Shown piece by piece: positions 25,178 to 50,207 of a stretch of 64,000 nucleotides of DNA (the stretch's first letter is position 1; the number at the start of each line of letters is the position of its first letter). Under the pieces are notes generated by a model. It was not told the origin of the DNA, searched no databases, and was given only the letters and a program-made list of their open reading frames with translations. The position numbers were made by a program, and so were the translations under genes. The DNA lies in assembly GCA_947624785.1 (NCBI GenBank), contig CANQLV010000005.1:124001-188000 (forward strand), in the 5' to 3' direction. The DNA comes from Akkermansia muciniphila (GTDB taxonomy: Bacteria > Verrucomicrobiota > Verrucomicrobiia > Verrucomicrobiales > Akkermansiaceae).

Positions 25178-26248
25178 TCAGCGGACCAGCCGCAGAAGGA
25201 TCCGGCGCAGCCTGTAGGCGGTTTTTTTCAGGAAGGTATGGCGGCTGAGTTCCGCGTAGGCCGCGGCGGCGTCATTCCGGCGCATGGCGGAAAGGAAGGC
25301 GTCACCACGGGCGGAATGGGCTTCCAGCGCCTGGCTCCAGATGGAGCTGGCGTTCAGTTTTTCAAGCGCCTGCGGCATGCCGTCCGCCGTCAATTTTCCG
25401 GAGACGGCCAGGGTTGCCAGAAAGCTGCGCATGTTGTTGAGGAAGGCCCCCAGTTCGCTTTTTTTCCAGTCTTCCCGGTCCGTCAGGGCCAGCTTGAGGG
25501 AATGAAGGCGGAGCATGTCGTCAAACAGGGAGAGGGACAGGTTCCCGGTCACCCCTCCGAATTTATAGATATACACTTCCTTTGCCAGCACGGCGATCCG
25601 TTCCGCCCTGGGGAAGACCTGGAGGTTGAAGAGCTGGTCTTCCGCATACCTGAGCCCGCTGGGGGCGGGGCGGCTGGACAGAAGGAATTCCCTTCTGTAA
25701 AGCTTGATGCACATTTTCCCGTAGGTGTAGAACAGGCCGTGCCTGTCCATGCCGAAGAAGCCGGAATAGTAGGAGGACAGGAATTCCTCCCTTTCCACCA
25801 CCCGGCTGTGCGGGATATGGCCGTCCTTCCTGCGGAAGAGGCCGAAGCGGTCCAGGTAGCGGACGTAGTCCCCGATGACGACGTCCGCCCGCTCCCGGAC
25901 GGCCATTTGAGCCATGGCTTCCACGCTGTCCGGAAAAATGGCGTCGTCACCGTCCACGAACATCACATACTCTCCCGCGGCCATGTCCATGCCGGCGTAG
26001 CGCGCGGCGTCCACCCCCGCGTTCTGCTGGGTGATGACCCTGATGTTCCGATGCCGCGCCGCATAGGCTTTCAGGATATGCGCCGTGCGGTCCGTGGAAC
26101 CGTCATTGACCAGGATGATTTCCAGCGGTGACCAGGTCTGGCGCAGCAGGCTGTCCAGGCAGGAGGAAACGCACGTTTCCAGATTGTACACGGGAACGAT
26201 GATGCTGACGAGGGGAGCCTCCGGAATGGTTTGAACAGGGTATTGCAT
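25178..26248 (-). CDS. Family 2 glycosyltransferase
   Basis: A 356-residue GT-A transferase that adds a sugar from a nucleotide donor, probably to the polysaccharide made by the adjacent operon. The N-terminal half shows VSIIVPVYN, LVNDGSTDRT and the metal-binding FVDGDD; the C-terminal 150 residues are helical. The ATG at 26248 (MQYPVQTIPEAPLVSIIVPVYN) is chosen; the frame runs 37 codons further upstream with a sequence unlike any GT2 start. It is the only gene of the polysaccharide locus on the minus strand and is divergent from it. Confidence 0.9.
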   Translation of the reverse strand: MQYPVQTIPEAPLVSIIVPVYNLETCVSSCLDSLLRQTWSPLEIILVNDGSTDRTAHILKAYAARHRNIRVITQQNAGVDAARYAGMDMAAGEYVMFVDGDDAIFPDSVEAMAQMAVRERADVVIGDYVRYLDRFGLFRRKDGHIPHSRVVEREEFLSSYYSGFFGMDRHGLFYTYGKMCIKLYRREFLLSSRPAPSGLRYAEDQLFNLQVFPRAERIAVLAKEVYIYKFGGVTGNLSLSLFDDMLRLHSLKLALTDREDWKKSELGAFLNNMRSFLATLAVSGKLTADGMPQALEKLNASSIWSQALEAHSARGDAFLSAMRRNDAAAAYAELSRHTFLKKTAYRLRRILLRLVR

Positions 26249-26402
26249 GGGTGCGGTCGTAAAGGTTCCGCCGCCATGAACAGGATGCCTGCCTGAACGG
26301 AAGCAGGGGACATGGGCCGGACCGGAGGAAACAATAGGGCATCCGGGCACGTCAAACAATGCTGAAAAGCTGGTTTCTACATTGCCGTATAGTTAGAGTC
26401 AT

Positions 26403-26432
26403 TTGCTATTTTCTTCATATTCAATCTATAAT
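26403..26432 (+). promoter_or_regulatory. Predicted promoter of the polysaccharide operon
   Basis: TTGCTA at 26403-26408, an 18-base spacer and a perfect TATAAT at 26427-26432 lie in AT-rich DNA upstream of the operon. Transcription would start near 26439 and give a leader of about 200 bases that contains the inverted repeat at 26478-26637. Confidence 0.45.
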
Positions 26433-26477: not shown

Positions 26478-26637
26478 CGGATTACCAGTCCGCTGTCAAT
26501 CGAAGATTCTGACAATATAAACTTTAAGAAGTTTCTGGATTTTTATTCTAACAAAAAAACCGTTTTTCTTACTCTGCCTAAGAGGCTGAAATTGCAAACT
26601 TTTCCGGGCCTCTATTTTTAAACGGACTGGTAATCCG
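26478..26637. repeat. Perfect 15-bp inverted repeat flanking 130 AT-rich bases
   Basis: CGGATTACCAGTCCG at 26478-26492 is the exact reverse complement of CGGACTGGTAATCCG at 26623-26637. The right copy ends three bases before the first operon ATG at 26641. The enclosed 130 bases are much richer in A and T than the flanks, and near the right end hold a seven-pair stem (26581-26587 with 26607-26613, one G-T pair) followed by ATTTTTA, resembling a weak attenuator. The arrangement fits either an invertible DNA switch or a structured leader. No recombinase gene is seen nearby. Confidence 0.7.
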
Positions 26638-26640
26638 CTA

Positions 26641-27801
26641 ATGTCCGGCCGCGCCCGTTTTTGTCTTGGCATGTGTTTCGATTTTATTCCCATTTCCTCA
26701 TACACTGCATTATTTAACTGGACCATTCTTTTTTTAATTCTTGGTGCGGTTTATCAGGCGGGAACAGGAGGAATTTTTTCCGCTTCCACGGCCAGGCTGG
26801 ACAGTCTGGCCGGGTTTTTATTCGTCGTCGCCCTGATCATGTACATGGGCGCGCGTCCCGTCAGCGCGGAGTTTGGGGATACCATCAATTACGCCGCGGA
26901 ATTCCAGACGCTTCAGCAGGGGGAGGCGGGCAACTGGAAAGCCCAGTTGACCGGCATGAAGGGGGAATGGCTGTTTGCCGTCATTCTGCATGCGTGGGTG
27001 CAGCACGGCAATGTGCACGATTATTTCCTGACCTGTTCCGCGGTGTACGTGGGAGCGCTGGCCCTGGCCAGCTACAGGATTTTCGGAACCCGGTGGTTCA
27101 TTCCCTTCCTGATTACGTGCGCCATGTTCACCTTCTGGGTATACGGGGTCAACGGCGTCCGCAACGGCATGGCCGCCTCCGTGATGATTCTGGGCCTCAC
27201 CTTCCGCAGCAACCTTAAAATGCTGCTCCTTTGCACCGTGCTCGCCGTCAGCCTGCACAAGTCCATGATGCTGCTGGCCGCCGCGGGAGCCTGCGCCTGG
27301 TTTATCACGGATACGCGGTATTACGTGGCGGCGTGGGCGGGGAGCATCCTGGCCGTTATTCTGGCGGGACCCGCCCTTGGGGAGATGATTGCCTCCTCCG
27401 GCTTTTTCGATGATCCGCGCCTGACCCTTTACATCAACCAGGCGGATGAATTGAAGGCATCCTCCGCGTTGTTCAGCAGCGTGGGGTTCCGCTGGGATTT
27501 CCTGGTTTACAGCGCGCTCCCCATTGCGACAGGCTGTTACTTCCTGTTCAGGGAGGAATACCGGGACGTAATGTATACGTGGCTGCTGAACATCTACATT
27601 GCGGCCAATGCGTTCTGGATTCTCTGCATGTACGCGGCGTTCAGCAACAGGTTCGCCCAGCTTTCCTGGTTCCTGATGGGCTTCGTCTTCATCTATCCCT
27701 TTTTCAAGCAGCGGTTCTGGGCTGACCAGGAAAAGAAACTCGCCTGCTTTATCCCGGTGGTTTACGCCTTCACCTTTTACATGAATATTTACAACGCATG
27801 A
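26641..27801 (+). CDS. EpsG-family polysaccharide polymerase (Wzy-like)
   Basis: A polytopic membrane protein of up to 386 residues with about ten hydrophobic segments. Wzy-like proteins join lipid-linked repeat units on the periplasmic face. The arrangement and motifs (an FGDTINYAAEFQ segment after the second helix, then VNGVRNGMAASVMILG and LAVSLHKSMMLL) match the EpsG family: a conserved xR-N/G-x-A-x-x segment and the later His in a helix. The ATG at 26641 lies next to the inverted repeat; the in-frame ATG at 26671 (MCFDFIP) is a likely alternative. It is the first gene of the operon and overlaps the next by four bases. Confidence 0.85.
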   Translation: MSGRARFCLGMCFDFIPISSYTALFNWTILFLILGAVYQAGTGGIFSASTARLDSLAGFLFVVALIMYMGARPVSAEFGDTINYAAEFQTLQQGEAGNWKAQLTGMKGEWLFAVILHAWVQHGNVHDYFLTCSAVYVGALALASYRIFGTRWFIPFLITCAMFTFWVYGVNGVRNGMAASVMILGLTFRSNLKMLLLCTVLAVSLHKSMMLLAAAGACAWFITDTRYYVAAWAGSILAVILAGPALGEMIASSGFFDDPRLTLYINQADELKASSALFSSVGFRWDFLVYSALPIATGCYFLFREEYRDVMYTWLLNIYIAANAFWILCMYAAFSNRFAQLSWFLMGFVFIYPFFKQRFWADQEKKLACFIPVVYAFTFYMNIYNA

Positions 27802-28916
27802 AAAGGAAACTCATCCGGGTTGCGGCGTCCCCCATCTCGCTGGACCTGCTGCTCAAGGGGCAGTTGAATTACCTGAACGGGTTTTTTGACGTTCTTGCCG
27901 TGGCTTCCCCCGGCGCGGAGCATGAGCGCATCCGCCGCCGCGAGGGCGTGGAAACCGTGGAGCTTGAGATGGAACGGACCATTTCCCTGTGGAAGGATTT
28001 GAAAAGCCTGTGGCGCCTGTTCCTGCTGTTCCGCAGGGAACGCCCGTGGGGGGTGCATTCCGTGACCCCCAAGGCCGGATTGCTGAGCATGGCGGCGGCG
28101 GCGCTGGCCCGCGTTCCGGTCAGGGTCCATACCTTCACCGGCCTGATTTTCCCCTGCCGGAAGGGAGCCTTCAAGTTCCTGCTCAAGCAGATGGACCGCC
28201 TGACCTGCCTGTTTGCCACCCACGTCATTCCGGAGGGGGAAGGTGTCCGGCAGCTTTTGCTGGCGGAGAAGGTGACGGGCAAGCCCCTGGAAATCCTGGC
28301 CCACGGGAACGTCAACGGCGTTGATCCTGATTATTTCCGCCGCTCCGGCCGCCGGGAGGAAGTGAGGAAGAACCTGGAATTGCCGGAGGATGCCGTGCTG
28401 TTTGTTTTTGTGGGGCGCATTACGGAAGACAAGGGCATCCGTGAACTGCTTGCCGCGTTTTCCGCCCTGCGCGCAGAGGCCGGGAGTGCTCCCGTTTTTC
28501 TGGCTCTGGTGGGGTGGACGGAGAATTACGCCGCGGAAAAGCTGGATGTGCCCGGCGTGTTCCGTCCCGGTTTCCAGGAGGATATCCGGCCCTGGCTGGA
28601 AGCCGCGGACGCGTTCGTGCTGCCCAGCTACCGGGAGGGATTTCCCAATTCCCTGCTGCAGGCGGGTGCCATGGAACTGCCCTCCATTGCCACGGATATA
28701 TGCGGGTGCAATGAAATTGTGAAAGACGGCGTGAACGGCCTGCTGGTTCCGGCACGGGATGAAGAGGCTCTCCGGCAGGCCATGGCGGCCCTGCGGGACG
28801 ACCCGGAACGGCGCAGGAGGATGGGAGTGGAAGCGGCGGAACAGGTGAAGAGCCGTTTCTGCTGCCGGATGGTGTGGGAGGCATTGCTCCATTTTTACGG
28901 AAGGGCGTCGGCATGA
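27798..28916 (+). CDS. Family 4 glycosyltransferase
   Basis: A 372-residue GT-B transferase. The N-terminal Rossmann domain contains [30 protein letters not shown], a pattern seen in GT4 enzymes that act on undecaprenyl-linked acceptors, such as PglA-like proteins. The C-terminal donor domain shows [36 protein letters not shown] and the EEALRQAM region; the EGFPNS segment holds the conserved catalytic Glu pair region. Because it is beside pglC, it could add the second sugar. Start and stop overlap the neighbours (ATGA at both ends). Confidence 0.9.
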
Positions 28917-29524
28917 TTTACGGGAACTGCATCAAGAGGGTGCTGGATTTTTCCGCCGCCCTGATTGTGCTGGCGGCGCTGCTGGTTCCGTTCCTGGCGC
29001 TGGCGGCGCTGCTGGCCGCCGCCAACCGCGGCACGCCGTTTTTCCGCCAGACGCGGCCCGGCCGCCACGGCAAGTTGTTCCGCATCGTCAAATTCAAGAC
29101 GATGACGGATGAGACGGACGAACGGGGGGAACTGCTGCCGGACGAACGGCGGCTGACGCGCGTGGGGCGGCTGGTGCGCTCCCTGTCCCTGGATGAACTG
29201 CCCCAGTTGTTCAATGTGCTGGCGGGGCAGATGAGCTTTATCGGTCCGCGCCCGCTGCTGCCGGAATACCTGCCCCTGTACAGTGCGGAACAGGCGCGCC
29301 GCCATGACGTGAGGCCCGGCATCACGGGCTGGGCCCAGGTCAACGGGCGCAACTCCATCGGATGGGAGCGCAAGTTTGAACTGGATGTCTGGTACGTGGA
29401 CCATCTGAGCTTGTTGCTGGATATGCGCATTATCTTTTTAACGCTGGCGAAGGTGGTCCAACGCCAGGGCATCAGCGCTGAAGGCAGCGCCACCATGGAA
29501 AAATTCACGGGTTCCGGAAAATGA
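28913..29524 (+). CDS. PglC-type undecaprenyl-phosphate phosphoglycosyltransferase
   Basis: A 203-residue monotopic membrane enzyme that transfers a sugar-1-phosphate to undecaprenyl phosphate and so starts the repeat unit. It has a single hydrophobic re-entrant segment at residues 9-35 and the family motifs [49 protein letters not shown] and [14 protein letters not shown]. The small size, with no N-terminal multi-span domain, matches PglC rather than WbaP. The next two genes make a bacillosamine-type sugar, which suggests the donor. The ATG at 28913 overlaps the preceding stop. Confidence 0.93.
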
Positions 29525-31308
29525 AGAAGAATATAGCAATCATCGGCGCCGGGGGATTCGGCAGGGAAACGGCCTGCTGCCTCCGGGCAATCAACGGGGA
29601 ATCCCCCTCCTGGAATTTGATAGGTTTCTTTGATGACGGGGTAGCCGCCGGAACGGAAAACGAGTATGGCCGCGTGCTGGGCGCGGTGGAAGAGCTGAAT
29701 GCCTGGAAGGAGCCTCTTTCCGTCGTGATCGCGATTGCTTCGCCACGGGCTTTGGAACGCATTTCCGGCCTGCTGGATAATCCGCTGCTGGATTTTCCCA
29801 ATATCATCGCCCCGGACGTGAAGTTTTATGACCGCGACCGGGTGGCCATGGGGAAGGGGAATGTCATCAGCTTCGGCCACATCTTCAGTTGCCATGTGGG
29901 CATGGGGGATTTCAACTTGTTCAGCTGCGGTTCCCTGATAGGCCATGACGTGACGCTGGGGAACTGGAACGTCGTGGCCAACGGCTGCAAGGTGTCCGGC
30001 GGCGTGACGCTGGGTAATGCCAATTTCCTGGGGGCCGCGTCCGTAGTGCTCCCGTGCCGCACGGTGAAGGGAAACGTCGTCCTGGGCGCCAATTCCACCC
30101 TGGTGCGGGATGCGCTGGAGGGAGGAACTTATGCGGGCTGTCCCGCCGTGCTGAAAAAGAAGCCTTCCCCCGCTCCGGAAAAGAAATCCACCATCTGGCT
30201 GTCCCTGGCCCAGACGGGGGAGGCGGAGGAGAGGTTCGTGCATGAAGCCTTTAAATCCAAATGGGTGACGACGGTGGGGCCGAATGTGGACGCTTTTGAA
30301 CGGGAACTGGAGGAATACCTGGGGGAAACGCACGTGGTGGCCCTGGCGTCCGGCACCTCCGCCCTTCATCTGGGGCTGGTGATGCTGGGGGTGGGGCCGG
30401 GGGATGAAGTGCTCTGCCAGTCCATGACGTTTGCCGCTTCCGCCAATCCCATCATTTACCAGGGGGCTTCCCCCGTGTTTGTGGACAGTGAGGAAAAGAC
30501 GTGGAACATGTCCCCGGAGATGCTGGAGGAGGCCATCAGGGACCGCATCAGGCGGACGGGCCGCACGCCCAAGGCCATCATTCCAGTGGACCTTTACGGG
30601 ATGCCCGCCAGCATGGAGGAGATCCTGGAGATTGCCGGGAAGTACGGCATTCCCGTGCTGGAGGACGCCGCGGAGGCTCTCGGTTCCGAATACCGGGGCA
30701 GGAAGTGCGGGGTATTCGGCACGTACGGCGCTTTTTCCTTTAACGGAAACAAGATCATCACCACCTCCGGCGGGGGAGCGCTGTGCTGCCCGGACGAGGA
30801 ATCCCGGAACAGGGTCAAGTTTTACGCCACCCAGGCCAGGGACCAGGCGCCGCATTATGAACACACGCACATCGGCTACAATTACCGCCTCAGCAACGTG
30901 TGCGCGGGCATAGGCCGCGGTCAGATGCGCTCCCTCCCCTCCTTCCTGGAAAAAAGGCGCGGCATCCATGAAGAATACCTCCGCCGGCTTTCCGGCGCGC
31001 CGGGGCTGTCCCTGCTGGAAAATCCGGATTCCCGCTACCATTCCAACCACTGGCTGACCTGCGTTCAGGTCAATCCGGAGGAGGCCCGGTTTGACCGGGA
31101 AACGCTGCGGCTGGCGCTTCAGAAGGCCGGGGTGGAAAGCCGCCCCCTCTGGAAGCCCATGCATTTGCAGCCCGTGTTCCGCTCCTGCCCGTTTTACGGA
31201 TCCGGTGTATCGGACCGCCTCTTTGAACAGGGCCTGTGCCTGCCTTCGGGCGCTTCCCTGACCGGGGAGGACATGGACCGCATCATTGACGTTATGGCAA
31301 CCCTTTAA
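29521..31308 (+). CDS. Fused PglD-like acetyltransferase and PglE-like aminotransferase
   Basis: A 595-residue two-domain protein. Residues 1-210 are a PglD-like acetyltransferase: a Rossmann-like head with [10 protein letters not shown] at 5-14, then a left-handed beta helix with the catalytic-His motif IGHDV (His142). Residues 220-595 are a PLP aminotransferase of the DegT/DnrJ/EryC1/StrS family: [23 protein letters not shown], and the PLP-binding Lys in [11 protein letters not shown] (Lys411). In Campylobacter these two steps, amination then N-acetylation of the 4-keto sugar, are separate proteins. The reactions lie in UDP-diacetylbacillosamine synthesis together with the dehydratase that follows. 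The gene overlaps pglC by four bases. Confidence 0.9.
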
Positions 31309-31313
31309 ATTTC

Positions 31314-33305
31314 ATGTTTATGGAACGGACGGATCATAATCCTATCGCGCGTTTCCTCTATCACGCGAGACACTATTTATTGAACTCCAGCGAGAAATTC
31401 GTTTTTGCGCTGGATCTGGCCGTTTCCCTGGCGGCGACATTTCTGGCCTTTTTGTACTGCCGGTTCCTGTACCGGGGAAACTGGCTGATGCCCAATATCC
31501 AGTACATTCTTCTCATTGATTTGGCGGTCACCGGCATTGTCCTTTGGAACTCGGGCTTATATAGAAGCATGATCCGGTTCACGACGCTGAAGGACATTCA
31601 AAGGCTGCTGGGAGCCATCCTGCTGTCGTGCATCCTCATCAGCCTGGTGTACACCTTTTTGTGGCCGGCCTATTACAAGGTGCACTTTGCCGGGGTGGTT
31701 TTCAATTTCATGCTGACCAGCGTGGCGTTGATCGGCGGCCGTCTGGCCTGCATCGGCGGCCGGAGCTGGCTGGACCATTTCCGTGCGGAGGAATCCCTTT
31801 CCTCCATCACCACCTCCGGGCGCAAGAGGGTGGCCTTGGCCGGGAAGCTGGACGCCTGCCTGCTGAAAGCCTCCTTGATCAGGAGCCTGAAGAGCGAGGA
31901 ATATGAAATTGTGGGCATTCTGACGTCTGAACAGCAGGCGGACGGAAGAACGATCAGGGATATTCCCGTTCGTTTTGTGCGTGAAGCTTCCGATGTGGAG
32001 GATGTTTTGGGCATATTCAAGGCCTCGGCCATCATTTTCGTAGGCAAGGATGACCTTCTCGAAGAAAAAAAGCTGGCTGACGTTTGCCTGGAACGGGGAA
32101 TCAGCCTCCTCATTTCCCATGACCTGTTCCAGTCGTTTCATGATTATTCCGGCTTGGCCGTGGACGACGTGCAGATTGAAGATTTGATGGACCGGGAGGA
32201 AATCAACATTGACGAAGGGATGATTTCCGCGGGAATTAAGGGCAGCGTGGTGATGGTGACGGGAGCTGCCGGTTCCATCGGCAGCGAGCTGGTCAGGCAG
32301 TTGTGCCGGTTTGCCCCCCGGAGGATCGTGTTGCTTGACCACGCGGAAACTCCCTTATGGCTGATCAGGAAGGAAATAGAAAAAGACTATCCTCAGGTTT
32401 CCGTCGCCAGCTGCATCACCAGCATCTGCCACCGCCGCCAGATGGAATACTGCATGTGGCAGTGGCGCCCCGATCTGATTTTTCATGCGGCCGCCTACAA
32501 GCATGTTCCCATCATGGAGGAAGACCCCTGCACGGCCGTGATCAATAATGTCAAGGGAACCGTGCACGTGGCTTCCCTGGCCGTCAAATACGGCGTCAAG
32601 CGGTTCGTCATGGTTTCCACGGACAAGGCGGTGAACCCCACCAGCGTGATGGGGGCGACCAAGCGGCTGGCTGAAATGTACGTGCAAAGCCTGGGGGAAT
32701 CCTTGAAAAGGCAGGACGCCGCCGCTCCGACCGTGTTTATTACCACGCGCTTCGGCAACGTGCTGGGAAGCGCCGGTTCCGTCATTCCCCTCTTCAAGGA
32801 TCAGATCAAGAAAGGAGGGCCCGTCACGGTGACTCATCCTGAAATCGTCCGTTATTTCATGACCATTCCGGAAGCCTGCCGCCTGATTCTCCAGGCGAAC
32901 GCCATGGGCTCCGGCGGCGAGATTTTCGTGTTCGACATGGGCGAGCAGGTGAAAATCGTTGAGCTGGCAAAGAAGATGATCCGCCTGGCGGGGCTTTCCC
33001 CGCTGAAGGATATCCGCATTGTGTTCACGGGCCTGCGCCCCGGGGAAAAACTTTATGAGGAGCTGCTGACGGATTACGAGCAGACCCGGGAAACCGCCCA
33101 CAAGCGCATCCGCATTTTCGAGGCCAGGAAGTACGACATGTCCGAGCTGAAAGACGCCTTTGAAGAATTGGTGCAGCATGCGGAATCCCGCCGTCTGGAA
33201 GATACCGTACGCGCCATGAAACAATTGATACCCGAATATAAAAGCAACAATTCCCCTTACCAGAAATACGACTACCTGGACTCAAAAGAACTCCTCACCA
33301 TCTAA
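31314..33305 (+). CDS. Membrane-bound nucleotide-sugar 4,6-dehydratase (PglF/WbpM-like)
   Basis: A 663-residue enzyme that converts UDP-GlcNAc to its 4-keto-6-deoxy derivative, the first step of bacillosamine-type synthesis. Four N-terminal membrane helices (about residues 20-150) are followed by a CoA-binding-like Rossmann domain (about 175-290) and an SDR domain: VTGAAGSIGSELV near 314-326, then HAAAYKHVPIMEE and STDKAVNPTSVMGATKR. In that last motif Met and Lys sit where Tyr and Lys are in other SDRs, the S-M-K signature of the PglF/WbpM group. ATGs at 31314 and 31320 are both possible. It lies five bases after the pglD/E fusion. Confidence 0.95.
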   Translation: MFMERTDHNPIARFLYHARHYLLNSSEKFVFALDLAVSLAATFLAFLYCRFLYRGNWLMPNIQYILLIDLAVTGIVLWNSGLYRSMIRFTTLKDIQRLLGAILLSCILISLVYTFLWPAYYKVHFAGVVFNFMLTSVALIGGRLACIGGRSWLDHFRAEESLSSITTSGRKRVALAGKLDACLLKASLIRSLKSEEYEIVGILTSEQQADGRTIRDIPVRFVREASDVEDVLGIFKASAIIFVGKDDLLEEKKLADVCLERGISLLISHDLFQSFHDYSGLAVDDVQIEDLMDREEINIDEGMISAGIKGSVVMVTGAAGSIGSELVRQLCRFAPRRIVLLDHAETPLWLIRKEIEKDYPQVSVASCITSICHRRQMEYCMWQWRPDLIFHAAAYKHVPIMEEDPCTAVINNVKGTVHVASLAVKYGVKRFVMVSTDKAVNPTSVMGATKRLAEMYVQSLGESLKRQDAAAPTVFITTRFGNVLGSAGSVIPLFKDQIKKGGPVTVTHPEIVRYFMTIPEACRLILQANAMGSGGEIFVFDMGEQVKIVELAKKMIRLAGLSPLKDIRIVFTGLRPGEKLYEELLTDYEQTRETAHKRIRIFEARKYDMSELKDAFEELVQHAESRRLEDTVRAMKQLIPEYKSNNSPYQKYDYLDSKELLTI

Positions 33306-33324: not shown

Positions 33325-34110
33325 ATGAAATACCTATATTTGTTCCGCCATCCCGCCCTGTGGAGCCGCCTGCTGGTAGCCGCCGCCCTGGCGTGCACGC
33401 TCCCCGCCTGCGTCAAGCCTGAAGAAGTCAATTACGTCCAGAACCTGGTGCTGGACCAGAAGGCCTCCATCGGGAAGGAGTATAAAATTGTCATCAAGAA
33501 GGATGACCGCCTGTTCATTTCCGTCAGCAGCAAGAATCCCACGCTCGCGCAGATGTTCAACAAGGACAGCGGCAGCGTTTCCAGCCCCAGGGATGACGAG
33601 CGCGGATACTTCGTGAACACGGACGGCGATATCGTGTTCCCCGTTCTGGGGAGAATCAAGGCCGTGGGCAAAACCTGCACCCAGCTGGCGAGCGACATTG
33701 AAAGTGAAATCATCAGGGAAGGATATATCAAGGATCCCGCCGTCAGCGTGCGCCTGATGAACTTTAAATTCTCCGTGCTCGGGGAAGTGTCCAAGCCGGG
33801 CAATTATGAAATCAAGGGGGAACGCCTGACGCTGCTGGAAGCTCTGAGCAAGGCCGGGGACCTGAACATGGACGGCAACCGTGACATTTACATCATCCGG
33901 GAAGCAGGGGGAGAGCGCATTGCGTCCAAGGTGGACCTGCGGAACAGCGACCTGTTCCATTCCCCCTACTACTACATCCAGCAGAATGACGTCATTTACG
34001 TCACTCCGTCGGACAGGAAGGTGAACACTCGGAGCGAACAGCTCCAGATTTATCCCTACCTGATTTCCGGCACCTCCATTGCCATGGTCATTCTGGCCTT
34101 CTGCATTTAA
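33325..34110 (+). CDS. Wza-like polysaccharide export lipoprotein
   Basis: A 261-residue outer-membrane export protein. The signal peptide ends in a possible lipobox at Cys29 (LPAC) or Cys24. The poly-export domain (about residues 48-120, DRLFISVSSKNPTLAQMF then GYFVNTDGDIVFPVLGRIK) precedes one SLBB-like domain (SVLGEVSKPGNYEIKG, then DVIYVTPSD). A hydrophobic C-terminal segment (ISGTSIAMVILAFCI) could be a membrane helix. It should form the outer-membrane pore that works with the Wzc-like protein encoded four bases downstream. Confidence 0.9.
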   Translation: MKYLYLFRHPALWSRLLVAAALACTLPACVKPEEVNYVQNLVLDQKASIGKEYKIVIKKDDRLFISVSSKNPTLAQMFNKDSGSVSSPRDDERGYFVNTDGDIVFPVLGRIKAVGKTCTQLASDIESEIIREGYIKDPAVSVRLMNFKFSVLGEVSKPGNYEIKGERLTLLEALSKAGDLNMDGNRDIYIIREAGGERIASKVDLRNSDLFHSPYYYIQQNDVIYVTPSDRKVNTRSEQLQIYPYLISGTSIAMVILAFCI

Positions 34111-34114
34111 TCCC

Positions 34115-36496
34115 ATGAAAGACCTCTCCCCCAAGAAGGAATTCCCGGATGCCGGCGGCGCGGCGCAGGTTTCCCTGCTTCCCAGCCCCAGGGCCATCAT
34201 GGGCCGGATTGTCCGGAAATGGTACTGGTGCGTGCTTTCCCTGTGCGTTTGTCTGCCCCTGGCCTATTTGTACGCGGCGCGGCAGCCCCAGGTGTACGGA
34301 AAGGCCACCACCATCCTCATCAAGGATGATTACCCCAGGGAATCCGTGGCCGCCACGGTGCTGGCCTCCACCAACGGAATAGTCAACACGGGCGCCACCA
34401 ATCTGGACAATGAGATTTTCCTGCTTTCCTCCCATTCCCTGCTGGAGACGGTGGTGCGGAATTTGAAGCTGGACGTCACCTACTGGAAGAAGAACGGGTT
34501 CCGCAAGGTGGAAATCTACCGGGACTCCCCTGTTGCGGTGCAGTTCACGCAGGAGGGAAAAACGGCTGACGCCAGGTTCCTGGTGATTCCCGTTTCCGGA
34601 ACGGAATTCCGTCTGGAAAAGGATGAGAAGGATCATCACGGGCACGAAACGGGCGCCTTCGGCAAGGAAATCCGGTTTGACTCCCAGACCTTCATCGTGG
34701 AAAAAACGCCCAAGTTTGACGAAGCCAGCCTGAACGTTCCCGTGATTGTCAGAAGAACCTCCGTAAAGAATGCGGCGATGGGGCTGGGAAGCGGCCTGAC
34801 CGTCAGAAAGGCGAGCGGAAAGAATGATTTGATCAACATTTCCATGCGCTGCAATAATCCGGTGAAGGCGGAGGATATTCTGTACAGCATCGTCCATTTT
34901 TACAATGAGGCGTCCCTGGAGGAAAAGAACAAGCGCGGCACGAAGACGAACGAGTTCATCGGAGACCGCCTGGACGTCATCAGTGATGAGATGAAGAAAA
35001 ATGACCTCGCGATTGAAGATCTGAAAAAAGAGACGGACGTTCTGACGGACCTGTCCACGGCCCTCACGGAGGAATATGAGAACAGCCTCAATGACAAAAA
35101 GGATTTGAGAGAGCTGGAGCTTGAAATCAAGTCCATAGAATACCTGAAAAATTACCTGGAACAGGAGGCCGAACATGACGCCAGGCTGGTGCCCATCAAT
35201 TCAAAGATAGCGGACATGGGCATCCGGGACCAGATCAGCGTTTTCAATGACACCCTGCTGAAAAGGACGAGCTTGAAGGTGAATGCCGGGGACAACAATC
35301 CGATTGTCCGCGAACTGGAGGCCAATTTGAACTCCCTGAAGGACGCGTTGAAGCGTTCCGTGAATAACTACTATACGTCCCTGCTGGTCAAGAAGAGGAA
35401 CGTGCAGGACCAGCATGAGCGGACGCGGGAGCATATCAAGAATGTTTCCAGCAGGGAAAGGGCCGTCAACCACATTGAACGGGAGCAGCGCGTCCGGGAA
35501 TCCCTGTACGTTCTCCTGCTGAACAAGAGGGAGGAAAATTCCCTGGCCCTGGCCGCCACGGAAGACAATGCGCGGATGGTGGACGGCGTGCGGGGCGGCA
35601 ACGGTCCGCTGGAGCCGAACGTTCCCAAGATTTTGATGGTGGGTTTTCTGGCGGGGATGGCCATTCCCGTATTCCTGTGCGTGGTCGCGGCCATGCTGGA
35701 TTCCGGCGTGAAGCGCCGGAAGGAAATAGAAACCCTGACCGCCATTCCCGTGTACGGGGAACTGCCGCGCAAGCCGCGGAAGCTGAAAAACCAGGAAATC
35801 GTGGTGAATCTGGAAGAACCTTCCGAGCTGTCCGAATGCTTCCCCCTGCTGGCGGAACGCATGGTGGCCCTTTCCGACGGGAACGGGGGAAATCCCCTCA
35901 GCGTCCTGATTACGTCCACCTGTTCCGGGGAGGGGAAGACCTATCTCTCCGTGAACCTGGCCCTTTCCCTGGCCGTGGCCGGAAAGAAGGTGCTGCTGAT
36001 GGATATGGATTTAAGGAAGGGATCGCTCAGCGCCCTGCTGGGCGGAGCCGGAAAGCCGGGCCTGGGAGACCTGGAACAGGCCGGGGAGGGCGGCTGGCGT
36101 TCCCTGGTGGAACAGTCCCCCGTTTCCGCCCACCTGGATTATTTGTTTGCGGGAACCGTGCCGGACCATCCCTCCCGGCTTTTGCTGCATGACCGCATCA
36201 GGAAGCTGATGGAGGAAGTGAAGGAGCAGTATGACTTCATCTTCATGGACTGCGTTCCCTATTCCTCCCTGGCGGATGCGCGCATCGTCGCCCGGCTGGC
36301 GGACGTCACCCTGTACGTCATGCGGGCCGGCTGCGTGAAGAAGCGTGATTTGGCCGGATTGCAGAAGGTCTGGAAAAACGGAGAGCTGAAGCGCATGGGC
36401 ATCGTCCTTTGCGACGTGGAGCCCCATGGCCGTTCTTCCCGCAGGTATGCCGTGTACAGGAGCCTGGATACCTCCTCCCCGTGCGCGGGAAAATAA
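34115..36496 (+). CDS. Wzc-like polysaccharide co-polymerase with BY-kinase domain
   Basis: A 793-residue inner-membrane protein that controls polymer length and export. The Wzz domain begins near residue 30, with a first membrane helix at about 36-55, a long periplasmic coiled-coil part to about 505, and a second helix near 506-528. The cytoplasmic kinase has Walker A SGEGKTYLSVNLA near 607, Walker A' VLLMDMDLRKG and Walker B FIFMDCVP near 707. The C-terminal tail holds only two tyrosines (RRYAVYRSL), fewer than the usual tyrosine cluster. The ATG at 34115 is four bases after the Wza stop. Confidence 0.93.
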   Translation: MKDLSPKKEFPDAGGAAQVSLLPSPRAIMGRIVRKWYWCVLSLCVCLPLAYLYAARQPQVYGKATTILIKDDYPRESVAATVLASTNGIVNTGATNLDNEIFLLSSHSLLETVVRNLKLDVTYWKKNGFRKVEIYRDSPVAVQFTQEGKTADARFLVIPVSGTEFRLEKDEKDHHGHETGAFGKEIRFDSQTFIVEKTPKFDEASLNVPVIVRRTSVKNAAMGLGSGLTVRKASGKNDLINISMRCNNPVKAEDILYSIVHFYNEASLEEKNKRGTKTNEFIGDRLDVISDEMKKNDLAIEDLKKETDVLTDLSTALTEEYENSLNDKKDLRELELEIKSIEYLKNYLEQEAEHDARLVPINSKIADMGIRDQISVFNDTLLKRTSLKVNAGDNNPIVRELEANLNSLKDALKRSVNNYYTSLLVKKRNVQDQHERTREHIKNVSSRERAVNHIEREQRVRESLYVLLLNKREENSLALAATEDNARMVDGVRGGNGPLEPNVPKILMVGFLAGMAIPVFLCVVAAMLDSGVKRRKEIETLTAIPVYGELPRKPRKLKNQEIVVNLEEPSELSECFPLLAERMVALSDGNGGNPLSVLITSTCSGEGKTYLSVNLALSLAVAGKKVLLMDMDLRKGSLSALLGGAGKPGLGDLEQAGEGGWRSLVEQSPVSAHLDYLFAGTVPDHPSRLLLHDRIRKLMEEVKEQYDFIFMDCVPYSSLADARIVARLADVTLYVMRAGCVKKRDLAGLQKVWKNGELKRMGIVLCDVEPHGRSSRRYAVYRSLDTSSPCAGK

Positions 36497-36517: not shown

Positions 36518-37651
36518 ATGCCGCGTTCCCGTCTGAAAGTCCTGTTCCTGGTGGAATCCCTGTCCGGGGGAGGAGCGGAGAAAATTCTCTCCGGGCTGGT
36601 GCGCGGCCTGGACCGGGAGCGTTTTGACGTGACAGTGTGCACGGTGGTGGACTGCGGCCCGTACCGGGAGGAAGTAGGGAAATGCGCGCATTACCGCACC
36701 ATCGTGGGCGGCCGGGGCTGGCTTTACCGGCTCAAGTACGCGCTGGTGTACCGTTTTCTGCCCGCGGGCTGGATTTACAAGTGGTGCATTGCCGGGGATT
36801 ACGATGTGGAGGCGGCTTTTACGGAAGGGTTTCCCACGCGCCTTCTTGCGGCCGCTCCGGAGGGGAAGGCCCGGAGAATTGCGTGGGTTCATGTGGACCT
36901 GGAGGCCCGGCCCTGGACGCAGGGGCTGGTGTTCCGGTCGCTGGAGGAGGAAAGGAAGGCTTACGCCCGGTTTCAAACCGTGGCGCATGTGTCGCAAACC
37001 GTCAGGGAGGCGTTTGAACGGCGCTTTGGAGCGCATGCCGGGTCCGTCGTCCTGCACAATCCGGTGGACCGGGATGCCGTACGCTCCGGAGCCGCCGCCG
37101 CGGAGGAAGTGCCGGAAAAAAGGCGTTTCCGCTTTGTTTCCGTGGGGCGTCTGGAGGAACAGAAGGGCTTTGACCGGCTGATTGCCGCGCTGGCCCGCTT
37201 GAAAGAGCGCGGATGGCAGGCGGAACTGGTGATTCTGGGGGAAGGAAGCCGTAGGCGGGAGCTGGAAAGCCAGGCCGCCGCCCTGGGAGTGGCGGACTCC
37301 GTGCTGATGCCCGGCTTCCGCGAGAATCCCTACCCGTGGATGGCCTCCGCCGATTTATTCGTATGCAGCTCCCGCAGCGAGGGAATGAGCACCGTGGTCA
37401 CGGAGGCGCTGGTGCTGGGCCTGCCTGTTCTGGCCGTGGAGTGTTCCGGCGTGCGGGAACAGCTTGGCATGGGAAGGTTCGGGCGCATTGTGGAAAATCA
37501 TGATGAGGCGCTGGCTGGCGGCATGGAGGACTTCCTGTCCGGCAGGGAATCCTGTGAAGAGTGGAGGGAAAGGGCGGCCCGGGGGGGCGAGGCGGTTGCT
37601 TATGAAAGCGCCGTGCGGAAGGTGGAACATTTGCTGGAGGAAATGAAATGA
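36518..37651 (+). CDS. Family 4 glycosyltransferase
   Basis: A 377-residue GT-B transferase. The N-terminal domain starts VLFLVESLSGGGAEKIL, with the Gly-rich loop typical of GT4. The donor domain has SVGRLEEQKGFDRLI, the VILGEGSRRRELE segment and CSSRSEGMSTVVTEALVLGLPVLA, whose Glu binds the nucleotide sugar. It closely resembles the next gene, so the two are tandem duplicates with probably different linkage specificities. The stop overlaps the next start (ATGA). Confidence 0.92.
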   Translation: MPRSRLKVLFLVESLSGGGAEKILSGLVRGLDRERFDVTVCTVVDCGPYREEVGKCAHYRTIVGGRGWLYRLKYALVYRFLPAGWIYKWCIAGDYDVEAAFTEGFPTRLLAAAPEGKARRIAWVHVDLEARPWTQGLVFRSLEEERKAYARFQTVAHVSQTVREAFERRFGAHAGSVVLHNPVDRDAVRSGAAAAEEVPEKRRFRFVSVGRLEEQKGFDRLIAALARLKERGWQAELVILGEGSRRRELESQAAALGVADSVLMPGFRENPYPWMASADLFVCSSRSEGMSTVVTEALVLGLPVLAVECSGVREQLGMGRFGRIVENHDEALAGGMEDFLSGRESCEEWRERAARGGEAVAYESAVRKVEHLLEEMK

Positions 37652-38796
37652 AGAAGGTGGCGTTTTTTGTCAACAGCCTGTCCGGCGGCGGTGCGGAAAA
37701 AATTCTGCAAACTCTGCTGAACCGCTGGAACGGAGACCGGTGGCAGGTGGTCCTTTATTCCGTCAGGAAGGAGGACATTCCGCCCGGCTACCCCCGGAAT
37801 GTATCCGTCCGTTTTCTGTTTGACGCCTTCCGGGAGGAGGACGGCCCCTGGGCGCGCCTGTCCGTCAAAATCAGGAACGGCCTGAAATTGCTGGTTTACA
37901 GGCATTTTCCCCCTTCCGTCTTCTACCGCTTGTTCATCCGCGGAACCTATGACGTGGAGGCGGCCTTCATTGAAGGCTACGCCACGCGGATAGCCGCCGG
38001 CTCCCCCCATGCCGGAAGCCGGAAACTGGCCTGGGTCCATATTGACCTGGCCGCCAACCACTGGACGCTGCCGGCCTACCGGAACGCTGAAGAGGAAAAG
38101 GCCGTTTACCGCCGTTTTGACACGGTGGCCTGCGTCTCCCGGGATGTCCGGGACTCCCTGCTGGCCCTGGCCGGCCCCTTGCAGGGCGCCCGGGTGGTTT
38201 ACAACCCCGTGGACGTTCCGCGCGTCAGGGAAAAGGCTGGGAAATCCGTTCCGGAACGTCCGGAGGGGGATGTCCTGTTCTGCGCTTCCGGCCGTCTCGT
38301 CCGCCAGAAAGGCTTTGACCGGCTGGTGACGGCGTGCCGTTATCTGGCGCAGGAGGGCTTCTCCTTCCATCTCTGGATTCTGGGGGAGGGGCCTGAAAGG
38401 AAGGCGCTGGAGCGCATGATCGCGGAGGGGAACTTGCAGGGCAGGATATCCCTGCTGGGGCAGCTGGAAAATCCGTATCCCTACGTGAAGGCGGCGGACT
38501 GGCTGGTCTGTTCCTCCCGCAGCGAGGGGTATTCCACCGTGATTTCCGAGAGCCTGATTCTCGGCACGCCCGTGGCGGCCACGCTGTGTTCCGGAGTCAG
38601 GGAGCAGCTTGGGGACGGGGAATTCGGGCTGATTGCGGAAAACCACGTGCTGGGGCTTTACCGCGCCCTGGAAGATATTCTGACGGGAAAGGCGGACCGA
38701 CGGGACTACTGCGGGCGGGCGCTCCGCGGGGGAGCCCGGTTTGACCTGGATGGGCAGATGAATGCCGTGAAACGGCTTTTTGAAGAAACGTGCTGA
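37648..38796 (+). CDS. Family 4 glycosyltransferase
   Basis: A 382-residue GT-B transferase and sister of the preceding gene: both share SLSGGGAEKIL, the YDVEAAF segment, AWVH-x-DL, FDRL and the C-terminal SSRSEG motif followed by CSGVREQLG. The donor domain has SGRLVRQKGFDRLV and WILGEGPERKALE. It overlaps the upstream gene by four bases and is six bases from the next. The sugar it adds cannot be deduced. Confidence 0.92.
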   Translation: MKKVAFFVNSLSGGGAEKILQTLLNRWNGDRWQVVLYSVRKEDIPPGYPRNVSVRFLFDAFREEDGPWARLSVKIRNGLKLLVYRHFPPSVFYRLFIRGTYDVEAAFIEGYATRIAAGSPHAGSRKLAWVHIDLAANHWTLPAYRNAEEEKAVYRRFDTVACVSRDVRDSLLALAGPLQGARVVYNPVDVPRVREKAGKSVPERPEGDVLFCASGRLVRQKGFDRLVTACRYLAQEGFSFHLWILGEGPERKALERMIAEGNLQGRISLLGQLENPYPYVKAADWLVCSSRSEGYSTVISESLILGTPVAATLCSGVREQLGDGEFGLIAENHVLGLYRALEDILTGKADRRDYCGRALRGGARFDLDGQMNAVKRLFEETC

Positions 38797-38802
38797 ATTG
38801 CC

Positions 38803-39828
38803 ATGCCCTCCGTATCCGTCATCATTCCCGTGTTCAACGCCGCGCCTTTTCTTGAAAAATGCGTGGGCTCCGTGCTGGAACAGACCTTTACGGATTTTGA
38901 CATCTGCCTGGTGGATGACGGGTCCACGGACGGGAGCGGCCCGCTGTGCGACAGGCTGGCTTCCGGGGACGAGCGCGTGCGGGTCATCCATCTGGACAGG
39001 AACATGGGGGTTTCCGCCGCCAGGAACCGCGGCATGAAGGAAACGGACGGAAGATGGCTGTGCTTCATTGACGGGGATGACTGGGTGACGCCCTCCTACC
39101 TTCAGGAACTGGTCTCCGCCGTGGAGGACGGGGCCTGCGACCTGGTGGTGGAAGGGCTGTGTTCCGTCCGCGCCGGGAAAAAGGATGAAGTGACGGTGCC
39201 GCAGCCCATGGAACTGGACGCCAGGCCCGGAGAGGAGGAAGCTTGGGTACGGCTGTTCCGCTCCTTCCTGCTCTTTGGCCCGGTGGTGAAATTGTACCGC
39301 CGCACCCTGCTGTCCCGGCATTCCATCCGTTTTCCGGAGGACGTTTCCTATGGAGAGGATCTGATGTTCAACATGGCGTACCTGAAATACATCAGGCGTT
39401 TGAGAACGGTGGACAAGGCCGGATACTTCTACCGCCGGGCAGAGGAAGGCACCCTGTCCACACGCTTTGTCCCGGAAAAATTCATCTGGATTGTCAGGCA
39501 GTTCCGCCTGGAGCGGAAATACTTCCATACCAGGGGGCTGGAAGGGGCGGCGGTCGAGGAATACCTGGCCTTCCGCTGGTGGGGGCTGGTGTACAACGCC
39601 CTGTTTGAAATATACCGTTTCCGGGACCGGTACGGCCTGGCGGGGCGCATGAAGGCGGTGAGGACCATTGTGGGAACGCCGGAAAACAACCTGCTGCGCG
39701 CCTATCCCGGGGTGTTCCGCTGTCCCGGGTGGATGAGCATGTGTTTATTCAACCGCTGGCCTTTCTGCCTGTTCCTGCTGATGGAAGGGGCGCGTGCCGG
39801 AAAAAATAAATCGAATGGGCATGCATAA
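38803..39828 (+). CDS. Family 2 glycosyltransferase
   Basis: A 341-residue GT-A transferase with VSVIIPVFN at the start, LVDDGSTDGSG, the FIDGDDWVTPSYL metal-binding segment and a helical C-terminal half with YGEDLMFN, which is common in capsule GT2 enzymes. It ends inside the beginning of the pyruvyltransferase-like gene, a short overlap that suggests coupled translation. No signal peptide is present. The catalytic base region cannot be assigned more exactly. Confidence 0.92.
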   Translation: MPSVSVIIPVFNAAPFLEKCVGSVLEQTFTDFDICLVDDGSTDGSGPLCDRLASGDERVRVIHLDRNMGVSAARNRGMKETDGRWLCFIDGDDWVTPSYLQELVSAVEDGACDLVVEGLCSVRAGKKDEVTVPQPMELDARPGEEEAWVRLFRSFLLFGPVVKLYRRTLLSRHSIRFPEDVSYGEDLMFNMAYLKYIRRLRTVDKAGYFYRRAEEGTLSTRFVPEKFIWIVRQFRLERKYFHTRGLEGAAVEEYLAFRWWGLVYNALFEIYRFRDRYGLAGRMKAVRTIVGTPENNLLRAYPGVFRCPGWMSMCLFNRWPFCLFLLMEGARAGKNKSNGHA

Positions 39829-40984
39829 GATTCTTTTATATCCCCATGGAGGCAGCGGCAATCACGGCTGCGAGGCGATCGTCAGGTCCACGATGCTGCT
39901 GCTCCGTCCCGAACAGGGCGTTCTGTTCTCCTCCGCGTGCGGGGAAGACAGGCGTTACGGGCTGGAACAGGCGGTGAAGGTGCTGCCGGAACAGCGGCCC
40001 ATCCGGAGGTGTTCCTCCGGGTATGCGGGCGCGTGGCTGCGGCGGCGCGTGCTGGGCGTCCGTGACGCCTTTGACCGGCTCGCGTTCGGCGGCATCGTGA
40101 AGGAAAGGGCGGACCTGGCCCTGTGCAGCGGAGGGGACAACTACTGCTACGGGGAGCCCGTGCATATCTATTTGCAGAACGACCTGCTGCGCCGCGCCGG
40201 CGTGCCCACCGTCCTGTGGGGGTGTTCCCTGGAACGGAAGGACATGAAGGGGAGGATGCTGGAAGACCTCCGGGCCTTTGACCTGATTGTGGCGCGGGAA
40301 TCCCTGACCTGCGACGCCCTGCGGGAATGCGGGTGCTCCCGCACGGTGCTGTATCCGGATCCGGCGTTTGCTCTTCCGGTGAAGGAGGCTCCTCTGCCGG
40401 AAGGCTGGAAGGCGGGGAACATGGCCGGCGTCAACGTCAGTCCCATGATTATCGGCCATGAGGGAAGGGCCGGAGCCGTGATGGAAAACTATGCGCGGCT
40501 GGTGGAATACCTGCTGGAAGCTACGGAGATGAATGTGGCCCTCATTCCCCATGTGGTATGGCCCGGCAACGACGACCGGAAGCCGCTGGGCGAGTTGGAG
40601 GAGCGTTTCCGGCACACGGGGCGTGTCGTCATGGTCGGGGACGCGCCCTGTGAGGAACTGAAGGGTTATATCTCCCGGTGCCGTTTCCTGGTGGCCGCCC
40701 GCACCCACGCCTCCATTGCCGCCTATTCCACGGGCGTGCCCGCGCTGGTGGCGGGGTATTCCGTGAAAGCCAGGGGGATTGCCCGCGATTTGTTCGGGAC
40801 GGAAGACGGCCACGTGCTGCCCGTGCAGGTTCTGGATGATCCTGACGAACTGCGGAAGGCGTTTGTCCGGATGATGGAAAGGGAAGATGACCTGAAGGCC
40901 GCCTATGCCGAGAAAATTCCCGCGTACCGGGAACGCTTGGCCCATCTGCCGGGGGAACTTTCAGCCCTGTTGAAACGGTCATGA
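39815..40984 (+). CDS. Polysaccharide pyruvyl transferase family protein
   Basis: A protein of about 389 residues with the PS_pyruv_trans pattern: the N-terminal GGSGNHGCEAIVRSTM loop, a central LALCSGGDNYC segment, WGCSLERKD, and near the C terminus CRFLVAARTHASIAAYSTGVPALV, the conserved (R)xHAx-x-A segment. Such enzymes move a pyruvyl group from phosphoenolpyruvate onto a sugar, adding negative charge to the polymer. ATGs at 39815 and 39821 both overlap the end of the preceding gene. The final ATGA overlaps the next start. Confidence 0.85.
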   Translation: MGMHKILLYPHGGSGNHGCEAIVRSTMLLLRPEQGVLFSSACGEDRRYGLEQAVKVLPEQRPIRRCSSGYAGAWLRRRVLGVRDAFDRLAFGGIVKERADLALCSGGDNYCYGEPVHIYLQNDLLRRAGVPTVLWGCSLERKDMKGRMLEDLRAFDLIVARESLTCDALRECGCSRTVLYPDPAFALPVKEAPLPEGWKAGNMAGVNVSPMIIGHEGRAGAVMENYARLVEYLLEATEMNVALIPHVVWPGNDDRKPLGELEERFRHTGRVVMVGDAPCEELKGYISRCRFLVAARTHASIAAYSTGVPALVAGYSVKARGIARDLFGTEDGHVLPVQVLDDPDELRKAFVRMMEREDDLKAAYAEKIPAYRERLAHLPGELSALLKRS

Positions 40985-42171
40985 TTGCGTATGTTTCCAT
41001 CTTGTCCGTCCTGCTCCTGCTGGTCCTGGCCGTGGTCTGCGTGGACGCCTGGCGCTTCCTGGGGACGCTGGCGGGGCGCTTCCATATCGGGCGCTGGCAG
41101 GACCGGCGCGCGTGGCAGGAGGCCCTGGCCCGGACGGCGGCGGCATGGACGCGGCGCATGCCGGCCGTTCCCAAGAGGGACCAGGGCAGGCGCATCCTGT
41201 GGGAGATGGCGCGGGGAACCTACGCGGACGCCGCCATTCAGGGGTGGCAGGCGGCGGGATTGTTCCTGGGGCTGCATGCCTATGCCGCGGACAGGAAGGA
41301 TGAGGCGTTGAAGGAAAGGCTGTGCCGCAGTCTGGAGGAACATGAACTGGTGAAGAATTGCCTGGCCGTTCCGGAGCCGGAACGGTGGGAGGCGGACCGT
41401 CTGCTGCTGGATTACGCCGTGCTGGAGGCCGGATGCCGCGGAGCGGACCGGGTGGCGGAGGCTTCCGCAGCGCTGCTGGAATCCCTGCGGACGGAGGCGG
41501 GAACGCTGGCCTACAGGCGCAGGCAGCCCGGCGTGCGTTACGTGGATACGATCGGGCTGGCCTGTCCTCTGGCGGCCTCCTGCGCGGCACGTACGGGAAA
41601 AGAGGAATACTGGAACCTGGCGGTGAAGCAGGTGGAGGAATATGACATGGCCCTGCTGCCGGGTTCTTCCTTCCCCGCCCACGGCTTTGAAATGGAGCGC
41701 GGCTACCCGCTGGGGCTGTATGACTGGTCCCGGGGCCTGGGCTGGTATGCGCTGGGGTTGTGTGAGCTTTACCGCCTGATGGCTCGGCACGGGAGGCCGG
41801 AGGCGGATGGAATGGCCCGGCGCATTCTGGAGCTGGCGGAGGAACTGCTGCCCCTGCAAAAGAAAAACGGCGGCTTCGGCTGGATGGTCGCCAGGCCGGA
41901 ATCCGTCTTTGAATCTTCCGGAACGGCCCTGCTGGGCCTTCTGCTGCTGGCCGCTTTCCGCATTTCCGGAGAGAAGCGTTTTCTGAAAGCCGCCTTCCGT
42001 GCGGAAAAGGCGCTGATGGGAGTGACGCGCCGCGACGGCGTGCTGGACATGTGCCAGGGGGATACCAAGGGCATCGGCATGTATTCCGACGTGTGGAACC
42101 TGATGCCGTTCGCCCAGGGAATGGCCCTGCGGCTGGGCGTGGAACTCAACGGGGAGGAGGGGAAGGCGTGA
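40981..42171 (+). CDS. Membrane-anchored GH88/GH105-like protein
   Basis: A 396-residue protein with one N-terminal hydrophobic segment (residues 2-24) that should anchor it in the inner membrane, followed by an (alpha/alpha)6 domain. The YVDTIGLACPLAA segment (Asp near 188) and YDWSRGLGWYALGL near 246-258 match the pattern of unsaturated glycuronyl hydrolases of families GH88 and GH105, in which an Asp drives hydration of the unsaturated sugar. Late segments ESSGTALLGLLLLAAFR and YSDVWNLMPFAQG also fit. Such a domain in a biosynthesis operon suggests trimming or release of the polymer. It overlaps the genes at both ends. Confidence 0.8.
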   Translation: MIAYVSILSVLLLLVLAVVCVDAWRFLGTLAGRFHIGRWQDRRAWQEALARTAAAWTRRMPAVPKRDQGRRILWEMARGTYADAAIQGWQAAGLFLGLHAYAADRKDEALKERLCRSLEEHELVKNCLAVPEPERWEADRLLLDYAVLEAGCRGADRVAEASAALLESLRTEAGTLAYRRRQPGVRYVDTIGLACPLAASCAARTGKEEYWNLAVKQVEEYDMALLPGSSFPAHGFEMERGYPLGLYDWSRGLGWYALGLCELYRLMARHGRPEADGMARRILELAEELLPLQKKNGGFGWMVARPESVFESSGTALLGLLLLAAFRISGEKRFLKAAFRAEKALMGVTRRDGVLDMCQGDTKGIGMYSDVWNLMPFAQGMALRLGVELNGEEGKA

Positions 42172-44866: not shown

Positions 44867-44867
44867 C

Positions 44868-49022: not shown

Positions 49023-49029
49023 CCGGAAG

Positions 49030-50190: not shown

Positions 50191-50207
50191 CCTTTATATT
50201 CAAGACC

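Follow-up and report, generated by a model that had tools for sequence, protein, structure and literature searches.

In Bacteroides fragilis, many capsule promoters of one genome are invertible: the whole promoter lies on the invertible segment, and the serine invertase Mpi acts on these segments in trans. A different way of moving promoter elements is found in the hybrid promoters of insertion sequences, where an outward-facing -35 box in the end of the element is combined with a -10 box in the resident DNA.

Invertons have also been described in Akkermansia. Their inverted-repeat motif, CGGATTNNNAATCCG, is quoted from Jiang et al. (Science 2019) in PMC13343947, and inverton group 138 of PMC11892184 is an Akkermansia group for which a repeat motif and a promoter-like motif within the invertons are reported. 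According to the accessible part of the latter paper, the motif search covered the inverton sequences and their repeats, not the flanks, and the Akkermansia motif missed the promoter cut-off of p<0.001. The cps1 inverton (Gracia et al., mBio 2026, PMC13343947) belongs to the same genus, carries the motif CGGATT..AATCCG and, in the accessible text, precedes a Wzx/Wzy capsule operon; long reads and PCR showed it in both orientations, and orientation tracks the capsule. The same text names no inverton for cps2 or cps3, no recombinase and no promoter layout. In the literature searched, which lacks Jiang et al. 2019 and the majority of subscription journals, neither a recombinase for the Akkermansia invertons, nor a split invertible promoter, nor a switch at the locus treated here was found. 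Already published are the class of invertons and the switch at cps1; the present locus, the proposed split promoter and the recombinase candidate are new.

The locus lies in a window of 64,000 nucleotides (the whole stretch of DNA analysed, G000:C5:124001-188000) from a genome of 3.08 Mb in 24 contigs, referred to as G000. A sequence-only reading of the window had pointed to two perfect 15-bp inverted copies around 130 bp of DNA in front of a polysaccharide operon, and had proposed an invertible switch, with a leader RNA carrying an attenuator as the alternative. The elements concerned are the following.

26478 to 26492, + strand: left inverted repeat CGGATTACCAGTCCG, putative recombination site (repeat scan, family motif)
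26493 to 26622, no strand: putative invertible segment of 130 bp (repeat scan, cross-species comparison)
26623 to 26637, - strand: right inverted repeat, putative second recombination site (repeat scan)

The repeats were confirmed by a scan for inverted pairs over 2 kb, in which these arms (15 nt, 130 nt apart) are 100% complementary and the remaining six pairs around the locus 70-92% complementary. The arm sequence, allowing up to two mismatches, occurs in 33 copies in the genome, as against 0 for the backward pattern; likewise, CGGATTNNNAATCCG at 0 mismatches is found at 70 places, as against 0 in the backward control. The window arm is itself a near-palindrome, CGGATT-ACC-AGTCCG, differing from the published motif in each arm by a single mismatch, with AGTCCG in place of AATCCG. 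With pair calling that required complementary 3-nt cores, 61 of the 63 perfect sites examined (out of the 70) sit in inverted pairs, the remaining two lying at contig ends, and every perfect site inside the contig stretches read has a partner with a complementary core. The 37 pairs of G000 span lengths of 129-492 and 27 distinct cores, their arms being identical in 28 pairs and differing by one base in nine. Judged by its sequence features, that is, motif-matching arms, 15 of 15 identical bases and inverton spacing, the window pair is a member of the Akkermansia CGGATT..AATCCG inverton family.

Some sites of this genome are arranged otherwise. At C10:1 and C20:63 a contig ends at a site with core GCT, the core also carried by pairs on C3 and C6, and assembly breaks of this kind are what recombination between loci would produce. 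The perfect sites C4:110819 and C4:112824, separated by 2005 bp, differ in their cores and are not inverton-like; the same spacing was found again in G005, G006, G007 and G009.

The genes on both sides of the segment were assigned mainly by family matches, as listed here.

25178 to 26359, - strand: divergent GT2 glycosyltransferase, start likely near 26247 (family match)
26671 to 27801, + strand: EpsG-family protein (Wzy-like polymerase), first gene of the operon (family match; conserved start 26671)
27798 to 28916, + strand: GT4 glycosyltransferase (PF13692, PF00534)
28874 to 29524, + strand: initiating sugar transferase (Bac_transf), whose real start may lie further downstream (family match)
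29521 to 31308, + strand: PglD-like acetyltransferase fused to a DegT/DnrJ aminotransferase (family match)
31314 to 33305, + strand: PglF/CapD-like dehydratase (Polysacc_synt_2; family match)
33325 to 34110, + strand: Wza-like export protein (Poly_export, SLBB; family match)
34079 to 36496, + strand: Wzc-like chain-length/tyrosine kinase protein (family match)
36518 to 51275, + strand: remaining operon, with glycosyltransferase-, pyruvyl-transferase- and flippase-like genes (ORF list, translations read by eye)

The family search of the operon ORFs gave no match for 42051-43682. The first operon protein has matches of 90% and 88% identity in the Akkermansia relatives G009 and G044. Its start had originally been placed three bases behind the right repeat; an ATG does stand there, at 26641, but it falls within a putative -10 box and is unconserved, and the conserved in-frame start is at 26671.

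Three Poly_export genes of G000 score above the cut-off, one each on C11, on C9 and in the window, and a fourth match falls below it. The C11 locus adjoins FtsK and holds wza and wzc; this is the published place of cps1, which in the accessible text of PMC13343947 is next to ftsK, with its inverton in the interval from ftsK to the wza-wzc end of the locus. The identification of the window locus with cps1 was considered and rejected, as FtsK and the cps1-type locus sit on C11. Compared with cps1 as described in that text, the window operon is a separate cps locus whose genes follow a different order, the polymerase coming first and wza sixth.

Inversion can be followed by comparing species. A total of 81 invertons were compared, comprising the 37 of G000 and 44 from nine other genomes; the latter consist of the 39 first listed, a non-random draw, and five orthologues of the window inverton, and many of them are mutually orthologous. 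Orthologue rows were kept where flanks and inside both matched, matches inside of less than 40 nt being dropped and one row being kept by a single flank. In 10 of the 39 between-species rows so obtained (a manual row count) the inside is reversed. The cleanest case is that of G009 against G010 (L110/L105), with a left flank 98% identical and an inside 97.9% identical over 145 bases in reverse. Moreover, the cores vary between species in both arms together (TAA/AGA/TGA at one locus, TCG/ATA at another), which is expected if the arms exchange strands. The proposal of an invertible switch is thus supported by the motif family, by the identity of the cores within pairs and by the reversed orthologues.

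The same comparisons bear on two explanations that do without a switch. The repeats could be the terminal inverted repeats of a miniature transposable element that merely happens to lie before the operon, and G045 does hold dozens of homologous segments with one core and 163-166 bp inside (10 of 10 read). The range of lengths (129-492) and the 27 cores in G000 speak against such an element, as does the fact that orthologues keep their place and flanks across species with the inside reversed, so that we consider this explanation highly improbable. The other supposes a leader RNA that is fixed and carries an attenuator; the repeat would then serve as a hairpin, or as a dyad bound by a regulator, and would not recombine. 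The repeats could indeed pair in RNA, and each arm is nearly palindromic on its own; nevertheless, orthologous pairs carrying this motif do occur in reversed form in different species, and the cores change jointly in both arms and differ freely among loci. Furthermore, the RNA folds no better than shuffled sequences (z-scores of -0.77 and -0.30), no stable, conserved terminator stem was seen, and in the alignment the GGC/GCC stem of the window is absent from G001, G008, G010 and G012. The attenuator offered by the earlier reading is accordingly disfavoured and has very little probability left.

The G045 set deserves a description of its own. Its dozens of homologous invertons share one length and the core CAA, have related flanks and carry TTGACAG at one of the inner ends, and its copies (L141, L146, L148, L153, L155, L157, L159, L161 and others) stand in both orientations relative to these flanks. 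The set resembles a very large switched family.

At the window locus itself, the comparison of strains that had been suggested gave a divided answer. The complete orthologues in G004, G001, G008, G010 and G012 all share the orientation of the window, making six assemblies in one orientation, and two contigs of G046 show it as well, with a break inside the segment and not at a repeat. G044, on the other hand, appears as a partial assembly of the flipped form: its left-flank contig crosses the repeat into the opposite end of the segment, and base 1 of the repeat is where its right-flank contig begins. In an ungapped comparison of 40 bases, the G044 end agrees with the opposite end at 24, 25, 25 and 26 positions for G000, G004, G008 and G010, at only 15 and 18 for G001 and G012, and with the present end at no more than 14 in any of the six species; a global gapped alignment of the same end is weak. 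In G009 the assembly is broken at both repeats, the left contig ending just before the left one and the right contig beginning just after the right one. Finally, the core is ACC in G000, G001 and G004 and ATC in G008, G010 and G012, in both arms each time. Since the six complete assemblies agree in orientation, the case for inversion at this locus is built on G044, G009 and the cores; on these comparisons it is well supported, and we infer that the segment also inverts in the window strain itself. The segment before this Akkermansia capsule operon is thus very probably an on/off switch operated by flipping.

How flipping could control the operon depends on the position of the promoter. As the sequence-only reading had stated, no complete promoter lies inside the segment: the consensus scan found none, and the Bacteroides arrangement of both boxes inside is absent, seemingly because the right repeat divides the promoter in two. 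The elements in question are these.

26494 to 26499, - strand: putative -35 hexamer TTGACA at the inner edge of the segment, facing left (inverton survey, alignment)
26639 to 26644, + strand: putative -10 hexamer TAATGT, fixed, outside the segment (inverton survey, six-species alignment)
26403 to 26432, + strand: promoter-like site TTGCTA-18-TATAAT, outside the segment and reading into it (pattern, alignment)

By simple arithmetic, inversion would bring TTGACA to 26616-26621 on the + strand. In the resulting layout TTGAC-N and TANNNT stand on either side of the 15-bp repeat, each set off from it by one base, which corresponds to a -35 box, a 17-bp spacer and a -10 box. TAATGT matches TATAAT at only three of six positions; its T, A and final T are the sole bases invariant in six species from the repeat to the column of 26650.

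The layout recurs in the family. TTGAC, read outward, stands at -7/-8 at exactly one end of 32 of the 37 invertons of G000 and of 38 of the 44 foreign ones, and never at both ends. Outside the repeats, TA occupies +2,+3 at 26 of 74 ends in G000 (background 0.054) and at 39 of 88 foreign ends (background 0.059), counts at other offsets in G000 being 0-8. The two halves face each other at 3 loci of G000 and 11 foreign loci, and are opposed at 18 and 23, respectively. Among 24 loci, a long outward ORF was found on the TA side alone at 14, on the other side alone at 2, on both sides at 6 and on neither at 2, spurious ORFs blurring this count. The split spacing is not universal: in 12 of the 37 invertons of G000 neither side has TA at +2,+3, some having it one or two bases off, and for these 12 the ON/OFF rule is unproven. 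The segment thus seems to carry only half of a promoter, the other half being fixed outside; promoter activity of the split layout is inferred from its arrangement. As TTGACA faces left in the window, towards the divergent GT2 gene (25178..26359), the operon is read as OFF, and should be so by the rule that TTGAC must face TANNNT.

Alternatively, the segment may invert without splitting any promoter, the site at 26403-26432 driving the operon and the segment blocking or passing transcription according to its orientation, as a terminator or leader. A promoter-like site just upstream had been claimed from the start; it is present as a pattern and is largely conserved in six species, and transcription from it would cross the segment whichever way the latter lies. 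Near 26586-26619 there is also a stem with ATTTTT behind it. This stem is, however, lost in G001, G008, G010 and G012, the RNA has the unremarkable folding already mentioned, and the strong enrichment of the -35/spacer/-10 layout among the 81 invertons would be left aside. Such an unsplit arrangement is unlikely, if less so than either explanation without inversion.

Within the segment, conservation is highest over the 25 bases that adjoin the left repeat; TGTCA...TGACA, which lies in this part at 26494-26514, is a possible accessory or regulator site.

With regard to the enzyme, the nine PF00589 matches of G000 fall in eight genes, one gene holding two of them. PF00239, the serine recombinase/resolvase family, is absent from G000 and from seven of the other nine genomes searched, and a serine invertase was rejected as candidate on its absence from G000. 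The candidate proposed is a tyrosine recombinase of 380 aa (G000:C9:123894-125033) with a PF00589 match, in whose alignment R, K, R, H and Y motifs are found, which we take to be the catalytic residues. Together with the PF00589 genes on C10 and C8, whose proteins are 44% and 35% identical to it, it forms a subfamily; four other PF00589 proteins compared are 16-18% identical to the C9 protein.

The distribution of the C9 type, which follows phylogeny, parallels that of the sites: among 65 genus genomes (manual count), orthologues of at least 90% identity occur in 12, and these are, G045 apart, the 12 with at least 36 sites. G045 was discarded as a counter-example, its 88 sites being mostly one repeated element with core CAA, so that this genome does not test the C9-type protein. 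G010, assembled as one contig, has 74 sites and only four PF00589 genes, plus one PF00239 gene. Two of the four are by score XerC-like and XerD-like, the third is the orthologue of the C9 gene, and the last is integrase-like, with a product of 394 aa, for which no counterpart of like size and score was found in G000, G001, G005 and G006. XerC and XerD genes are present in all 10 genomes searched and so are possible invertases as well, but no link between them and the repeat sites was found there.

Seven further loci of the wider subfamily were inspected, and in five of them (one each in G045, G005 and G001, two in G012) the recombinase lies beside a CGGATT pair; two of these five had been chosen for a known nearby site, the unbiased count being 3 of 5. 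The L056-type recombinases, at the other two loci, have no adjoining CGGATT pair. For the C9 type, no site was found nearby in the four genomes read, nor for the C10 and C8 genes in G000. At L163, L164, L166, L167 and L168 the recombinase stands directly beside the pair, in some cases with an autotransporter-like or secreted-protein gene opposite. The assignment, likely as it is, draws on distribution, elimination and neighbourhood only: the C9/C10/C8 subfamily probably supplies the invertases, and the C9 type is rather likely the chief one in G000.

The reading preferred here, to which we give a high probability, is that of a phase-variation inverton with a split promoter, flipped by a tyrosine recombinase, before a capsule-type operon other than cps1. 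A recombinase of the C9 subfamily would pair the two 15-bp repeats and invert the 130-bp segment, the 3-nt cores of both repeats having to match. The -35 box TTGACA would ride on the inner edge of the segment and the -10 box TANNNT would remain fixed outside the right repeat, which, with one base on each side, would form the 17-bp spacer in the ON state. With the -35 box facing right, the operon would be ON, with a transcript that begins near 26651 and is translated from 26671; with the -35 box facing left, the state of the window, it would be OFF. Such a system would be like that of B. fragilis in that one genome holds many invertible promoters before polysaccharide loci, served by an enzyme acting in trans, and unlike it in that no serine recombinase is found in G000 and only the -35 box lies on the segment. 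With the hybrid promoters of insertion sequences it would share the assembly of a promoter across an element boundary, and differ in that the Akkermansia junction is the recombination site, so that assembly would be reversible.

Many of the switched genes of G000 (e.g. at C3:46526, C7:62006 and C8:105132) encode secreted-looking proteins of about 250 residues, which start with MKKTL, have a signal that ends near AAT and seem to form one family that is switched in common.

Applied to the other capsule loci, the TTGAC/TANNNT rule gives ON for the C11 inverton (69578-69760), where TTGACA faces TAATTC, and OFF for both the C9 and the window loci. On a genome-wide scale, we lean towards the view that some 40 reversible split promoters, each with the repeat as its 17-bp spacer, a -35 box that alone flips and a -10 box that stays with the gene, may be served by one trans-acting subfamily of tyrosine recombinases, some members of which lie beside their own switch, three capsule loci and many surface-protein genes being set independently (cps1 ON and the other two OFF in the present assembly). 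A spacer that is also the recombination site would explain why motif searches confined to the segment see a weak promoter, and half a promoter inside would likewise account for the Akkermansia motif missing the cut-off in the accessible part of PMC11892184. A named recombinase candidate makes the flipping enzyme directly testable by gene removal. Moreover, if the rule holds, the ON orientation of each Akkermansia surface locus would be readable from its sequence, and metagenomes and assemblies would become data on expression state.
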